Shown: positions 1,055 to 6,235 of the stretch, piece after piece
Layout: every line of letters starts with the position of its first letter
Position numbering within the stretch: the stretch's first letter is position 1
From: Bauldia sp.
Lineage (GTDB): Bacteria > Pseudomonadota > Alphaproteobacteria > Rhizobiales > Kaistiaceae
Direction of reading: 5' to 3'
DNA length: 6,543 bases
NCBI GenBank assembly: GCA_020442095.1
Contig: JAGRKY010000194.1
Span: forward strand, 396 to 6,938
Made by a program: the position numbers and the translations under genes
Notes under the pieces: model-generated
The model's database searches: none
Seen by the model: only the letters and a program-made list of their open reading frames with translations
Told to the model about the DNA's origin: nothing

Positions 1055-1294
1055 TTAGTTGGCCCCGGAGTCGGGGGCCTCTTCCGGCTTGCGCGGCACG
1101 ATCGCCTCGTCGCCGAGTTCGGCAATCACCACCGGGTCGACGCTGGAAGCGGGGAGGGTGGCCTCCTGCTCGACCGGTGTTGCGGATGCGGTGACGTGGG
1201 TCTTGTGCCATTCGCAGGCCGAGGCAGCCACACCGGCACCGGCAAGGATACCGACGGCGGCAGCCAAGGTGATGGAGGCGGATACGAGTCTCAT
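1055..1294 (-). CDS. Small exported protein of unknown function (79 aa)
   Basis: I do not recognise a named family. The protein starts MRLVSASITLAAAVGILAGAGVAASACEWHKT: a short basic n-region, an alanine/glycine-rich hydrophobic stretch (about residues 5-22) and a probable signal peptidase I site at the ASA motif just before CEWHKTHV. The mature part is only about 50 residues, polar and acidic, ending in a proline-rich tail. It has one cysteine, right after the cleavage region; the upstream residues ASA are not a good lipobox, so I favour a soluble periplasmic protein over a lipoprotein. Small proteins with an N-terminal CE(W/F)HK-type motif after the signal peptide occur in Rhizobiales (recollection, unchecked). 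The ATG at 1294 is chosen over an in-frame start at 1408 because it has a strong ribosome-binding site and gives a proper signal peptide. The gene is convergent with lpdA. Confidence 0.8.
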   Translation of the reverse strand: MRLVSASITLAAAVGILAGAGVAASACEWHKTHVTASATPVEQEATLPASSVDPVVIAELGDEAIVPRKPEEAPDSGAN

Positions 1295-1444: not shown

Positions 1445-2410
1445 TCAGCGGCGCCTGGAGTCGGCGAGAGTGAACCAGCCGACGCCGGCAAGCACCAGGG
1501 CGGTTCCCGCGACGTCGACCAGGGTCAGCGGTTCGCCGAGGATCGCGACGGCAAGCAGGATGGTCATGACCGGAGAAAGGGTGCCGATCGTCGCGTTGGC
1601 CTGGGCCGAGATGCGATGCAGCGCCGCGTTGAGGAAGAAGGACGGGATCACTGTCGCACCAATGGCGATAAGCAGAGCGTAAGCGTTGAGGACCGGCGAC
1701 ACGATGAGGTCCCGCGCCGGGTGGGTCAGGAAGAACTGGGCGAAGGCGCCGACCGCCGCACCGCTCATGGCGATGCAGGTGAAGAGCCGCGGGCCGATTG
1801 TCGCGATAAGACCCTTGGCAAAAAGCTGGTACATCGCGAAGGAGATCGCGGCGAGGAGGATGAATCCCGCGCCGATCGCGATGTCGTGGCCGTCGCTGAC
1901 GACCTTCTCGCCGAAGATGACGGCAAGGCCGGCATAGCTGACGCCGATCGCCAGCACCGCCCGGAGCCGGATCGGCTGGCGGAAGAACATCGCGCCGAAG
2001 ACCACGACGAAGAGCGGATAGGTGAAGAGGATCAGCCGCTCGAACTGGGCGGAGATATATTCGAGGCCGAGGAAGTCGGTGTAGCTGGCGAACCAGTAGC
2101 CGAGCAGGCCGACGCCGGCCGCCATGACGACCTCCCGCAGCGCCGGCAGAGGCTTGCCGGTGCGCCGCCGGTCGCGGATCGAGAGCCAGCCGATTCCGAG
2201 GTAGAAGGGAAGGGCGAAGCCCATCCGCAGCGCGAGCAGGGTCTCGGCGTCGATGGATTCGGCATAGGCGAGCTTGATGATCACCGCCTTGGTCGAAAAG
2301 AGCAGGGCGCCCACCGCCGCGAAGACGTAGCCCATCCGGACATAGCCCGGGCCCGGCGCCGCCTCCGCGGCCGGGATCGCCGAAGTCGCTGGTTGTGTGG
2401 TCACGGCCAT
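1445..2410 (-). CDS. EamA/DMT-superfamily transporter, 10 TM
   Basis: This is an inner-membrane permease of the drug/metabolite transporter superfamily, probably exporting or importing a small metabolite; the substrate cannot be read from sequence. The 321 residues are typical of the family. After a polar, proline/alanine-rich N-tail (1-24) come two EamA repeats of about five helices each, roughly residues 25-165 and 175-315. The second repeat ends in the hallmark block ANATIGTLSPVMTILLAV followed by GEPLTLVDVAGTALVLAGV (about 271-310). The C-terminus is a basic tail (DSRRR) likely in the cytoplasm. The ATG at 2410 is preferred over an in-frame TTG at 2428, which has no Shine-Dalgarno sequence and adds only MGKRSK; ATG 2410 itself has just a weak GGGAAAG about 10 bases upstream. 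The 79-aa gene lies downstream on the same strand, 150 bases away, so co-transcription is possible but not shown. Confidence 0.93.
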   Translation of the reverse strand: MAVTTQPATSAIPAAEAAPGPGYVRMGYVFAAVGALLFSTKAVIIKLAYAESIDAETLLALRMGFALPFYLGIGWLSIRDRRRTGKPLPALREVVMAAGVGLLGYWFASYTDFLGLEYISAQFERLILFTYPLFVVVFGAMFFRQPIRLRAVLAIGVSYAGLAVIFGEKVVSDGHDIAIGAGFILLAAISFAMYQLFAKGLIATIGPRLFTCIAMSGAAVGAFAQFFLTHPARDLIVSPVLNAYALLIAIGATVIPSFFLNAALHRISAQANATIGTLSPVMTILLAVAILGEPLTLVDVAGTALVLAGVGWFTLADSRRR

Positions 2411-2618: not shown

Positions 2619-2706
2619 AAAAAAGGGGCCCGCGAAAGCGGGCCCCAGTCTGGGTCAGGGAGGAGAGAGAATGAAGGCGGAGGGGGGAGGAGCGCCCTCA
2701 TTCGCG
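2619..2706 (-). ncRNA. Putative suhB/alpha-r14/'cuckoo'-type small RNA with two CUCCUCCC motifs
   Basis: Read on the minus strand, the region has three parts in order. First is a hairpin with an 11-base stem, GAATGAGGGCG (2703-2693) pairing with CGCCTTCATTC (2679-2669) with one G-U pair, around a 13-base loop containing CUCCUCCC. Second is a single-stranded linker (2668-2647) with another CUCCUCCC at 2665-2658. Third is a perfect 9-bp stem GGGGCCCGC/GCGGGCCCC with a UUUC loop (2646-2625) followed by six U (2624-2619), a textbook intrinsic terminator. This matches what is known of alphaproteobacterial anti-Shine-Dalgarno small RNAs (suhB motif, alpha-r14, CcsR/cuckoo family), which are usually Hfq-bound trans-acting repressors of translation. 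The exact subfamily is not resolved. The 5' end is estimated from a CTATTG hexamer at 2717-2712. It lies between xerC and the transporter gene; no DUF1127 gene, a common neighbour of CcsR RNAs, is present. Confidence 0.75.
2625..2646 (-). terminator. Intrinsic terminator of the small RNA
   Basis: A perfect 9-bp all-G/C stem with a tetraloop is followed on the minus strand by TTTTTT (2624-2619). On the plus strand the flank is not T-rich, so it acts for minus-strand transcripts only. It would stop the small RNA and any xerC read-through before the transporter gene. Confidence 0.88.
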
Positions 2707-2711
2707 GACGA

Positions 2712-2717
2712 CAATAG
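2712..2717 (-). promoter_or_regulatory. Possible -10 element of the small RNA
   Basis: CTATTG resembles the alphaproteobacterial -10 (CTATAT) and sits 9 bases before the first stem of the small RNA. No convincing -35 lies 16-18 bases upstream. That space is instead taken by the imperfect palindrome at 2724-2748. Confidence 0.35.
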
Positions 2718-2723
2718 GGGGCG

Positions 2724-2748
2724 GGCGCTGAAGCCGGCCTGAAGCGCC
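2724..2748. promoter_or_regulatory. Imperfect palindrome upstream of the small RNA
   Basis: On the plus strand GGCGCT (2724-2729) and AGCGCC (2743-2748) flank a central GCCGGC palindrome. It lies between the xerC stop and the candidate small-RNA -10 and covers the -35 position. It could be an operator or an RNA hairpin in the xerC 3' untranslated region. No T tract follows it on the minus strand. Confidence 0.35.
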
Positions 2749-2792
2749 GGTTCATCGGACATTCAGCGAAAAACGGCGGTTTCCCGGCGGTT

Positions 2793-3749
2793 TCAGGCCC
2801 GGGGATGGGCGGCGTTGAAGGCGGCCATCAGGCGGTCGGTGTCGACTTCGGTATAGACCTGGGTCGTCGACAGGCTGGCGTGGCCGAGGAGTTCCTGGAT
2901 TCCCCTGAGATCTCCGCCATTTGCGAGGAGATGCGTGGCGAAGGAATGGCGGAGCGCATGGGGGGTGGCGGTGTCCGGCAGTCCCAGGGCGGAACGGAGC
3001 TTCGCCATCGCGCGCTGGACGATACGCGGATTGAGACGGTCGCCGCGGGCGCCGAGGAACAGCGGCGAATCGGAACCGGGCGCATAGGGACAGAGCGCCT
3101 GGTAGCGCGCGATCGCCGCGGTGACCGCCGGCAGGACCGGCACGATCCGCTGCTTTCCACCCTTGCCGGTGATGCGGAGCGCGTCATGGGCGCTTCGCGG
3201 CGCTTCGCTCCGTTTCAGCGACAGCGCCTCGGAGATGCGCAAGCCACAGCCGTAGAGGAGGGCGAAGATCGCCGTGTTCCGCGCCGCGATCCACGGCTCC
3301 TCGTCGAGCGCATCATCGAGCGAGACGACCCGCGAGGCGGCCTCGGGCGGCAGCGGACGGGGCAGGGAACGCTTCTGGGCGGGGGGGCGGACGGCGCGGA
3401 ACGGCGCGCCCGTGGCCGTCCCGTCCCGCTCGAGGAACCGGATCAGCGATCGCACCCCGGCGATGCCCCGGGCGATGGTCCGCGACCCGGCGCCGGCGTT
3501 CCTGCGGGCAGCGAGGAAGGCGCGGATGTCGGTGACGCGGATGTCGGCGAGGTCGGCAAGCCGCACCGGTTCGCCGAGGTGACCGGCGAGGAAGGAGAGG
3601 AACTGCTCGACGTCGCGCGAATAGGCCTCGACGGTCTTCGCCGCCAGTCGCCGTTCGTGGGCGAGATGCCGCCGCCAGCGCTCGACCGCCTTGAGGAGGT
3701 CGGGCCGGGCAATGACCAGCGGTGCGTCGACGGGTTTCGCTTTCACCAT
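2793..3749 (-). CDS. xerC: Tyrosine recombinase XerC
   Basis: XerC acts with XerD at dif to resolve chromosome dimers before cell division. The 318 residues match the family's usual length. The N-terminal SAM-like core-binding domain covers about residues 17-110 (VERWRRHLAHERRLAAKTVEAY). The catalytic domain carries every expected residue: Arg171 in GLRISEAL, Lys196 in TGKGGKQR, His264 and Arg267 in HALRHSFATH, His290 in LLGHASLSTT, and the nucleophile Tyr299 in QVYTEVD. XerC is favoured over XerD from overall similarity as I recall it; a misassignment between these paralogues is possible. The ATG at 3749 is chosen although no Shine-Dalgarno sequence precedes it. The open frame continues far upstream, but that stretch is antisense to the amidohydrolase and encodes low-complexity Arg/Ala sequence. 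A CtrA-type box lies 23 bases upstream, and the gene diverges from the amidohydrolase. Confidence 0.94.
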   Translation of the reverse strand: MVKAKPVDAPLVIARPDLLKAVERWRRHLAHERRLAAKTVEAYSRDVEQFLSFLAGHLGEPVRLADLADIRVTDIRAFLAARRNAGAGSRTIARGIAGVRSLIRFLERDGTATGAPFRAVRPPAQKRSLPRPLPPEAASRVVSLDDALDEEPWIAARNTAIFALLYGCGLRISEALSLKRSEAPRSAHDALRITGKGGKQRIVPVLPAVTAAIARYQALCPYAPGSDSPLFLGARGDRLNPRIVQRAMAKLRSALGLPDTATPHALRHSFATHLLANGGDLRGIQELLGHASLSTTQVYTEVDTDRLMAAFNAAHPRA

Positions 3750-3788: not shown

Positions 3789-3887
3789 ACGCTTCCCTCC
3801 GGTGGTCGGCGCGCGACACTTCCCATCGCCGGGCGGGCGTGACAGGCTGCGGAAAACGACAGACAAACACGTCGGGGAGGAAATGAG

Positions 3888-5201
3888 ATGACGCAAATTT
3901 CGCTCACCAACGCGCGGGTGATTGACGGCTCGGGCGCCGAGCCCTTCACCGCGACGATCGACATCGCCGACGACCGCATCGTCGCGGTGCGTCGCGACGG
4001 GCAGCCCGGCAACGGCATGGGCGGGAGCGGAACCGAGGTCATCGACTGCGCCGGCCGCACGGTGATGCCCGGCCTCACCGAGGCCCACTGCCACATCTCC
4101 TTCGACAACATCGTGTCGATGGAAGCGGTGGTGGCGACCCAGCCGGAAGACCATTCGCTGATCTCGCTGAAGAACGCGCAGATGCTGATGGAGCGCGGAT
4201 TCACCAGCCTCTACAGCGCCGCCGCGGCGAAGCCCCGGCTCGACGTCGCGGTCCGCAACGCAATCGACAGCGGCATGTTTCCGGGCCCGCGAATCCGCGC
4301 CGCGAGCCAGGAGATATCGCCCTCCGGCAATCTCGGCGACATCGACAATAACTACCTGCAGCTTCCGCGCAGCCTCGCCTTCGCGATCACCGCCGACGGC
4401 GTCGACGAATTCACCAAGGCGGCGCGGCTCGCTGCCCGCGACGGCGTCGACAACATCAAGATCAACGTCTCGGGCGACCGCGACTGGGGGCATATGCATG
4501 CCGACGACACGACGACGGTGATCGCCGAGGAGGAGGTCGCCGCGGTGGTCGCGGTCGCGGGGCCGCGCAAGCTGATGGTCTCGGCTCATTGCACGAGCTC
4601 CGAGGGCGTCAAGATATGCGTCCGCCAGGGGGTGCAGGTCGTCTACCACGCGGTCCATGCCGACGAGGAGGCGCGCGACATGCTGGAGGCGGCGAAGGAC
4701 CGCGTCTTCGTCGCGCCGGCCCTCGGCCTGCCGCTGACCATGCTGCGCGAGGCGGCCGACTACGGCATCAAGTGGCCGGCCGAGCGCTACGCCAATCTCG
4801 AGAAGGAGCTCGCGACGACGCAGGCCTGCATGCGCGACCTCCACCGGCGCGGCGTGCGGGTGCTGCCCGGCGGCGACTACGGCGCCTTCGTCACCAACCC
4901 GATCGGGACCAACGCCCGCGACCTCGAACATTTCGTCGACTTCCTCGGCTTCTCGCCGATGGAGGTCCTCATCGCGGCGACGAAGCATGGCGGCGCGATG
5001 ATGCAGCGCGGCGACGAACTCGGCCAGATCCGCGAAGGGTTCCTCGCCGACCTGCTGGTCGTCGACGGCGACCCGCTCGCCGACATCCGCCTGCTGCAGG
5101 ACGCCGACCGCATCGAGGCGGTGATGATCGGCGGCCGGCTGGTCAAGGACCGGCTGGCGGAGGCGCGGCGGGGCGTGGAGCGAAGGGTGGCGGCGGAGTA
5201 G
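3888..5201 (+). CDS. Metal-dependent amidohydrolase family protein
   Basis: This is a cytoplasmic hydrolase of the amidohydrolase superfamily, in the imidazolonepropionase/prolidase-like group that cleaves amide or peptide bonds in small substrates; the true substrate is unknown. The 437 residues have no signal peptide. The order is: an N-terminal beta-sandwich part (about 1-60), the metal-binding HCH motif at 67-69, a likely carboxylated Lys191 in NIKINVSG, His234 in SAHCTS, His254 in VYHAVHADEE, and Asp330 in LPGGDYGAF. The C-terminal part returns to the beta-sandwich with FLADLLVVDGDPLADI. All metal ligands are present, so it should be active. The usual GTD around the last Asp reads GGD here. 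GGAGG sits 6 bases before the ATG at 3888, fixing the start over an out-of-frame ATG at 3883. It is divergent from xerC and appears monocistronic. Confidence 0.93.
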   Translation: MTQISLTNARVIDGSGAEPFTATIDIADDRIVAVRRDGQPGNGMGGSGTEVIDCAGRTVMPGLTEAHCHISFDNIVSMEAVVATQPEDHSLISLKNAQMLMERGFTSLYSAAAAKPRLDVAVRNAIDSGMFPGPRIRAASQEISPSGNLGDIDNNYLQLPRSLAFAITADGVDEFTKAARLAARDGVDNIKINVSGDRDWGHMHADDTTTVIAEEEVAAVVAVAGPRKLMVSAHCTSSEGVKICVRQGVQVVYHAVHADEEARDMLEAAKDRVFVAPALGLPLTMLREAADYGIKWPAERYANLEKELATTQACMRDLHRRGVRVLPGGDYGAFVTNPIGTNARDLEHFVDFLGFSPMEVLIAATKHGGAMMQRGDELGQIREGFLADLLVVDGDPLADIRLLQDADRIEAVMIGGRLVKDRLAEARRGVERRVAAE

Positions 5202-5328: not shown

Positions 5329-5338
5329 AAGCGGTGCG

Positions 5339-5383
5339 TCCTTCGAGGCTCGATCGCTTTTGCGATCGAGCACCTCAGGATGA
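5339..5383 (+). repeat. REP-like palindromic repeat, short form
   Basis: TCCTTCGAGG, then a perfect 10-bp hairpin GCTCGATCGC-TTTT-GCGATCGAGC (5348-5371), then ACCTCAGGATGA. The ends are imperfect inverted repeats (CCTTCGAGG against CCTCAGGA). It matches the dispersed CCTTCGAG...CTCAGGATGA palindromes known between genes in Rhizobiales. The downstream flank CGGGGTTAGT is shared with the copy at 6133. Confidence 0.7.
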
Positions 5384-5394
5384 CGGGGTTAGTA

Positions 5395-5449
5395 GCGCTT
5401 TGCGATCGAGCACCCTCGGGTCAAGCCCGAGGGTGGGCTCTCAGGATGA
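5395..5449 (+). repeat. REP-like palindromic repeat, long form lacking its left arm
   Basis: This copy begins in the loop of hairpin 1 (CTTTGCGATCGAGC), so the left arm is missing. It continues with a second, perfect 10-bp hairpin, CACCCTCGGG-TCAAG-CCCGAGGGTG (5411-5435), and ends GGCTCTCAGGATGA. The segment TTTGCGATCGAGCACC directly repeats that of the short form 41 bases upstream, which suggests tandem duplication followed by a deletion. Confidence 0.7.
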
Positions 5450-5695
5450 GGGGGGTGGTGATGGGCGATCGAGTGCCGGAGGACGGTGTCTCCGAGAGCG
5501 GTAGGGTCGGCGAGACCCATGCCTTTGATGGCTGCCGGCAGGGTCCGCTCCCGCACCCGCGGGCCGGAAATATTCTAGCAGGGGTGACCGTCGCCAAATA
5601 ATATCCGCGATTGTCGCGCGGCGACTGCGCACGGCCATTGTCGCAGGTGGACCCGAGGGCCGCTGGCCGGCGGCGATTGGTTTTAGGAGATCAGC

Positions 5696-6109: not shown

Positions 6110-6132
6110 TGACGAGTCTCGGGCGCGGGGCC

Positions 6133-6204
6133 TCCTTCGAGGCCCGATCGCCCAAGGCGATCGGGCACCCTCGGGTCAAGCCTGAGGGCAGGCTCTCAGG
6201 ATGG
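6133..6204 (+). repeat. REP-like palindromic repeat, complete long form
   Basis: TCCTTCGAGG leads into an 11-bp hairpin, GCCCGATCGCC-CAA-GGCGATCGGGC (6142-6166). A second hairpin follows, CCCTCGGG-TCAAG-CCTGAGGG (6168-6188, one G-T pair), then GGCTCTCAGGATGG. It has the left half of the short copy at 5339 and the right half of the copy at 5395, in the same orientation. It lies between two convergent genes, where it may also act as a terminator. Confidence 0.72.
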
Positions 6205-6235
6205 CGGGGTTCGTGTTGCTGGGTCGGTCTGCCCC

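Follow-up and report, generated by a model that had tools for sequence, protein, structure and literature searches.

A candidate anti-Shine-Dalgarno small RNA of the Bauldia lineage, encoded upstream of an EamA transporter gene

The closest described systems are small RNAs that expose C-rich anti-Shine-Dalgarno (aSD) tracts. The alpha-R8 RNAs (Rfam RF00519), namely MmgR of Sinorhizobium and SisA-D of Caulobacter, are defined by a single-stranded 10-mer, UUUCCUCCCU, that follows a weak hairpin, and SisA represses through this single-stranded sequence (PMC12559287). AbcR1 and AbcR2 (alpha-r15) carry CUCCUCCC in the 5' loop and an aSD tract between the stem-loops, and compensatory mutations have been reported for them (PMC8844928). 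NfeR1, of the alpha-r14 group, silences ntrB via aSD seeds (PMC10746234). RNAs with three and four CCUCCUCCC hairpins have been described computationally (PMC3927594), and CcsR-like RNAs often lie beside DUF1127 genes, an arrangement termed the CIN1 locus (PMC10253847). The role of Hfq differs between these relatives: NfeR1 is Hfq-independent (PMC10746234), and MmgR, reviewed in PMC7143759, is Hfq-dependent. A literature search for Bauldia together with small RNA returned a single paper, on microbiota.

Here we describe a further RNA that resembles these, encoded on the minus strand of a 6,543-nt stretch of DNA (the window, meaning the whole stretch analysed). The closest relatives of the window belong to Bauldia (Hyphomicrobiales): its XerC shares 96% identity with the XerC of the MAG Bauldia sp. 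HKST-UBA53 (L001) and 88% with that of Bauldia litoralis ATCC 35022 (L002). Judged from the sequence, the RNA gene is most likely real, conserved and restricted to this lineage, and is presumably expressed.

Structure and conservation of the RNA

The predicted parts of the RNA are as follows, R1 and R2 being the covariance models described below.

2619..2703, minus strand: small RNA of about 85 nt, with a predicted 5' end at 2703 and a 3' end in the U tract (fold, R1 and R2 models, five other genomes)
2669..2703, minus strand: 5' hairpin of 11 bp, 2703-2693 pairing with 2679-2669 (fold, six-copy alignment)
2680..2692, minus strand: hairpin loop CUCCUCCCCCCUC, the first aSD tract, variable among copies and C-rich in all
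2647..2668, minus strand: single-stranded linker UCUCUCCUCCCUGACCCAGACU, the second aSD tract, with its first 11 nt the same in every one of the six copies
2619..2646, minus strand: intrinsic terminator with a 9-bp GC stem, a UUUC loop and six U (fold)

Read on the minus strand from 2703 to 2619, the hairpin is GAAUGAGGGCG-CUCCUCCCCCCUC-CGCCUUCAUUC, followed by the linker UCUCUCCUCCCUGACCCAGACU and the terminator GGGGCCCGC-UUUC-GCGGGCCCC-UUUUUU, which places the U tail at the 3' end of the RNA. The fold of 2610-2720 has a predicted energy of -47 kcal/mol compared with a shuffled mean of -29.5 (z -6.66), a value equalled by none of 200 shuffles. This fold, the sequence itself and the conserved copies bear out the hairpin, linker and terminator that an earlier note on this DNA had placed on the minus strand. 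The same note gave the extent as 2619..2706; its 3' end stands, and 2703 is a better start than 2706. The two CUCCUCCC-type motifs it had reported, one in the loop and one unpaired, are the only occurrences of CUCCUCCC in the window and both lie on the minus strand, at 2685-2692 (loop) and 2658-2665 (linker, unpaired in the predicted fold). By count alone this is weak, with a mean of 0.56 expected per window and at least two found in 21 of 200 shuffles; the RNA stands out from chance because it is conserved in relatives, not because of the CUCCUCCC count.

The same RNA is present in five related genomes, giving six copies with the window. The L001, L002 and L087 copies were found beside the neighbouring genes or through an Rfam RF00519 search and were combined with the window into the covariance model R1, which was run over 28 family genomes. 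It matched 17 of the 28 at E up to 0.01 and was strong in five, comprising the training copies in G001 (99.9 bits), G002 (92.1 bits) and G003 (85.5 bits) and newly found copies in G005 (75.1 bits) and G006 (62.6 bits). A further 17 matches, none above 38.3 bits, were set aside after reading by eye; at least two of these weak loci are BjrC1505 (L110, and a G001 locus also labelled L094). A second model, R2, built from all six copies, scores its members at 79.9-98.2 bits, with the next best match among the sources tested at 40.7 (L171, in G083). The window RNA scores 96.1 bits with R1 and 93.4 with R2, being part of both training sets, and the E-values of both models are rough. An order-wide model search of 397 genomes, which used stricter filters and apparently included only two of the clade's genomes, gave eight matches at E up to 1e-4, strong in G001 and G002 and at 33-41 bits in the remaining six. 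The best of the weak R2 matches, L171 (G083:C1:1710532-1710613), is a hairpin RNA near a LacI-type regulator gene, with the linker CCUCCCUGACCCAAACU as in L001 and L002; it is possibly a distant relative of the window RNA.

In the six-copy alignment, which was fitted to the structure and whose copies all come from one family-level sample, 95.8% of the 119 helix cells pair, compared with 90.4% in shuffles, and sliding the helix partners lowers pairing to 34-56%. Five pairs are changed on both sides, two in the 5' hairpin and three in the terminator, against a shuffle mean of 2.0 (as high in 6 of 500 shuffles). Further pair types are not above the shuffles (12 versus 11.0, with as many in 177 of 500), and the loop-closing pair of the 5' hairpin forms in three of the six copies.

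The stems thus vary while a CCUCC-type tract, exposed in the predicted fold, is kept as sequence. The 11-nt core of the linker, UCUCUCCUCCC, is identical in all six copies, and CUCCUCCC is kept there in each. In the loop, three copies (window, L001 and L104) have an exact CUCCUCCC and five have CCUCCC, whereas G006 has no more than CUCCCC. The conservation expected by the earlier note therefore holds for the linker motif and, as an exact sequence, for half of the loops. Because UCUCUCCUCCC is invariant while the loop varies, the linker is the likelier seed. A simple pattern search for CCTCCC followed by a T run within 600 nt downstream of xerC, which misses variants, found the element at 2 of 76 loci (L001 and L002).

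Comparison with known RNA families

It had been suggested, in the earlier note, that the RNA belongs with suhB, alpha-r14 or CcsR. No Rfam family reaches its cut-off in the window. The top score of all is that of suhB/mmgR (RF00519), at 25.4 bits against a cut-off of 41; ar14 (RF02344) reaches 23.5 against 58.8, AniS 22.0 against 50 and SorY (RF02651) 21.3 against 111, with others weaker. The CcsR, AbcR (RF02345) and BjrC1505 (RF02356) models are unlisted for 2500-2820 even at E 10. On these Rfam results we reject membership in suhB/mmgR, ar14, SorY, AbcR and CcsR. Matches to the ylbH leader (plus strand, 24.1 bits, cut-off 50) and to sR53 (20.4 bits, cut-off 49) are taken as chance.

The catalogued families are represented elsewhere in the sister genomes. 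The RF00519 search over relatives at E 1 is loose, matching 13 of 14 control genomes (one above cut-off), and only matches above cut-off were used as evidence. By this measure, better RF00519 members exist at other loci in each of G001-G004 (63.5-71.4 bits), and in G001 and G002 the better RNA sits between FGase and inositol-phosphatase genes. RF02344 exceeds its cut-off in four of six relatives (G001, G002, G003 and G006) and stays below it in G004 (53.6 bits) and G005 (only 20.2); the ar14 RNA adjoins a DUF1127 gene in five of the six (G001, G002, G003, G004 and G006). G001 has BjrC1505 as a gene of its own (L094, 93.4 bits), and RF02345 has no match above cut-off in the six relatives. Because better suhB/mmgR, ar14 and BjrC1505 genes lie elsewhere in the sisters, the window RNA is additional to the catalogued RNAs. 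It looks like an extra aSD RNA outside the catalogued families, and adds a further C-rich RNA of this type, beyond alpha-R8, alpha-r14 and BjrC1505, to a little-studied genus.

Two arrangements were seen in passing. The CIN1 layout, in which two ar14 RNAs in tandem follow a DUF1127 gene, is found at L176/L182 (G001:C35:16301-16763) and L178/L183 (G002:C16:81994-82464). Weak suhB-model matches of 22-32 bits at L085, L088 and L096 (G001:C27, G002:C10 and G003:C114) lie no more than about 300 nt from other DUF1127 genes, and have a hairpin and a terminator and no CCUCC tract.

In its build the RNA shares elements with several families. With alpha-R8 it has in common a hairpin, a single-stranded C-rich 10-mer and a terminator, and UCUCCUCCCU in the window equals UUUCCUCCCU at 9 of 10 letters; the alpha-R8 10-mer itself is replaced by UCUCCUCCCU in five of the six copies and by UCUCCUCCCA in G006. 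The alpha-R8 hairpin is weak, whereas the hairpin here is a strong one of 11 bp with an aSD loop, and the usual alpha-R8 position is beside N-formylglutamate amidohydrolase (FGase), which is none of the seven window proteins. AbcR1 and AbcR2 are built likewise, the loop of their 5' hairpin carrying CUCCUCCC and their stem-loops being separated by another aSD tract, but this second tract is UUCCCCUC, unlike that of the window RNA. The alpha-r14/NfeR1/cuckoo RNAs, including CcsR (RF02344, RF02791), have exposed CUCCUCCC tracts and stems free to vary, as here; they carry three or four aSD hairpins, in contrast to one aSD hairpin and one linker tract here, and three hairpins each with CCUCCUCCC are not found in the window RNA. 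The CIN1 locus of CcsR/cuckoo has DUF1127 beside the RNA, whereas no DUF1127 gene is present among the seven window proteins, as the earlier note had observed. BjrC1505 and SorY resemble the window RNA in having a hairpin, a CCUCCCU linker and a terminator.

Promoter block, neighbouring genes and origin

Conservation extends upstream of the predicted RNA start, into a block with the following elements.

2704..2766, minus strand: conserved promoter block (six-copy alignment)
2766-2761, minus strand: CTGAAT, part of the block
2744-2739 and 2733-2728, minus strand: direct repeat CTTCAG-N5-CTTCAG with an 11-bp step, part of the block
2717-2712, minus strand: -10-like CTATTG, part of the block

The six copies have in common CTGAA(T/C), then CTTCAG-N5-CTTCA, then CCTAGGGT or a close variant, and the CCTAGGGT-type element ends 6-7 nt ahead of the predicted RNA start. 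Every copy keeps the block, even that of G003, which has a gene other than xerC upstream. Genome-wide, CTTCAG-N5-CTTCA occurs at 18 sites in six genomes (4 for the backward control), and only the five at the RNA precede the -10-like element, as read by eye. A sigma-70 consensus scan of 2380-2900 found no promoter. Activator sites of the OmpR/PhoB response-regulator type have this layout, with an 11-bp direct repeat some 10 nt ahead of a -10 box. A literature search for CTTCAG-N5-CTTCAG found no known regulator.

Seven window proteins were scanned against Pfam. Four matched (an lpd-like pyridine nucleotide oxidoreductase, an EamA transporter, a xerC-like recombinase and an amidohydrolase) and three had no match. 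Two of these genes flank the RNA.

1445..2410, minus strand: EamA/DMT transporter gene (Pfam PF00892), the constant downstream neighbour
2793..3749, minus strand: xerC-like tyrosine recombinase gene (Pfam PF00589, PF02899), upstream in three of six copies

The RNA starts 89 nt past the xerC stop, on the same strand. The earlier note had defined the setting by xerC; this describes the window, G001 and G002, and the constant neighbour is EamA, which lies downstream on the same strand in all six copies. In G003 the upstream gene is a MOSC gene with cutC (named by reading rather than by Pfam), and in G005 and G006 a loose tblastn search of the 247 and 327 nt upstream did not find the xerC end, the L001 control being positive.

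Across the order, 41 of 297 genomes had an EamA match. Loci were obtained from 30 of the 41, and 28 of these lie outside G001 and G002. In 16 of the 28, xerC was located ahead of EamA in the roughly 1.5 kb examined, and none of the 16 showed the element of CCTCCC plus a T run between the two genes. The sole pattern match within 900 nt, at -888 in L168, falls inside xerC. In G004, locus L004 has xerC, the short frame described below and EamA, and the RNA was not found; its EamA is also the least similar to that of the window (67% identity, compared with 73-89% in the five RNA-bearing genomes). Because outgroups often keep xerC-EamA without the RNA, the RNA probably arose in the Bauldia lineage. 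Most simply, the RNA would have been gained in the gap once the lineage had split from G004, and the upstream region rearranged in G003; it may instead have been lost in G004. Outgroups with the same gene order and no RNA make the birth of the RNA and its promoter traceable.

Several other features of the window were noted. At 2580-2512 (minus strand), just past a promoter-like TGCTAGACA (2596-2588), lies a 22-codon frame, MSTAPKYLWLIRLRATRDGDGV, and between it and EamA a GC-rich hairpin. L001, L002, L004 and L104 have comparable frames, which are less clear in L087 and L105; the frame looks like an attenuator leader peptide. A conserved 79-aa protein with no Pfam match is encoded between EamA and lpd (1055-1294, minus strand); L001, L002 and L105 encode relatives of 60-80% identity at the corresponding position. 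Two copies of a dispersed repeat (5331-5485 and 6125-6218) share 62 nt at 85%, further blocks of 27 and 20 nt, and inverted arms, and are probably an intergenic mosaic element.

Alternative readings, mode of action and targets

We consider it likely, though some way from certain, that this is an independently transcribed, trans-acting aSD small RNA of the Bauldia lineage, with transcription and targets predicted from its sequence and its resemblance to described RNAs. Its position just past the xerC stop, on the same strand, would also suit a reading as the xerC transcript's 3' end, whether a terminator with a pyrimidine-rich tail or an RNase E-cut 3'-UTR RNA like CcsR1-4 from the ccaF1 mRNA; in Rhodobacter, CcsR1-4 are cut from a 3' UTR, and SorX is likewise 3'-UTR-derived (PMC8625941). 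The MOSC gene in front of the RNA and its promoter block in G003, the missing xerC end in G005 and G006 and the conservation of the block in all six copies make this unlikely, and a mere terminator would not hold the linker invariant. The constancy of EamA downstream could instead point to a cis-acting leader of that gene, a default terminator overridden by some signal. Against this, in G004 both the short frame and EamA are present and the RNA is not, and in most copies a second promoter-like TGnTA element precedes the short frame, between the terminator and EamA, so that EamA may have its own start; we find such a leader quite improbable.

The C-rich tracts might also, rather than pair with mRNA, serve as a decoy that titrates another small RNA (a sponge) or a protein, either ribosomal or RNA-binding. 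CrfA, which is G/A-rich, acts as a sponge for the UUUCCUCCCU siblings in Caulobacter, and C-rich RNAs thus take part in RNA-RNA titration; in that pair, however, the C-rich partner is the mRNA repressor and not the sponge (PMC12559287), and we give the decoy reading very little credence. By likeness to NfeR1, AbcR1/2 and SisA, repression in trans is the best mechanism for the RNA. Transcription would start near 2703 from the RNA's own promoter, where the 11-bp direct repeat may be the site of a response-regulator activator, and end with the terminator, at 2619. GGAGG-type ribosome-binding sites, those with GGGAGGAG being the expected responsive type, would pair in all cases with the unpaired C-rich linker and often with the hairpin loop too. 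Pairing would block 30S binding, and mRNA decay may follow; by analogy, repression would act via the linker and, where intact, the loop.

Exact complements of the linker, GGGAGGAGAG, are not enriched in the six genomes (59 sites, compared with 65 for a backward control that also holds the Shine-Dalgarno core). We read 55 of the 59, two of which are the RNA itself, leaving 53 non-self sites; three of the four unread sites are also the RNA itself and one lies in ar14. Twelve of the 53 sit 2-8 nt ahead of a frame of at least 80 codons, and four of these twelve are ABC-transporter genes. An AbcR-like transporter regulon seemed indicated until the control pattern AAGGAGGAAA was considered: of its 44 sites, 30 were read (G001-G006, loci L265-L294) and 12 lie ahead of such frames, seven being uptake-transporter genes, six of ABC type. 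Because the control has an even higher share, the transporter preference is not special to this RNA, and the genes behind GGGAGGAGAG sites in the six genomes show no specificity over another strong Shine-Dalgarno pattern; we put forward none of them as a specific target.

These numbers, which are small, suggest that transporter genes in these genomes tend toward strong Shine-Dalgarno sequences, and this is a possible general reason why aSD RNAs regulate transporters, the control being small as well. More tentatively, and with clear doubt, the RNA may be a lineage-born aSD regulator that arose in the old xerC-EamA gap under its own response-regulator promoter and through which a new signal feeds into a global brake on strong ribosome-binding sites. 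Since such sites in these genomes often belong to nutrient-transport genes, any RNA of this sort would then brake transport by default. If true, this would explain the reported transporter targets of different aSD RNAs (AbcR, NfeR1).

Individual candidate targets can be named. A DJ-1/PfpI gene, present (E up to 1e-40) in the five RNA-bearing genomes and not found in G004, has a full GGGAGGAGAG site in G003 and G005, the shorter GGGGAGGAG in G002 and a weaker site in G001, with no site seen in G006; on the sequences of six genomes it is only a lead. Within the window, GGGGAGGA (3874-3890, plus strand) precedes the start of the amidohydrolase gene on the far side of xerC. It is complementary to the loop sequence UCCUCCCC and may mark a target or simply a strong Shine-Dalgarno sequence; GGGGAGGA is identical ahead of the L002 amidohydrolase gene.
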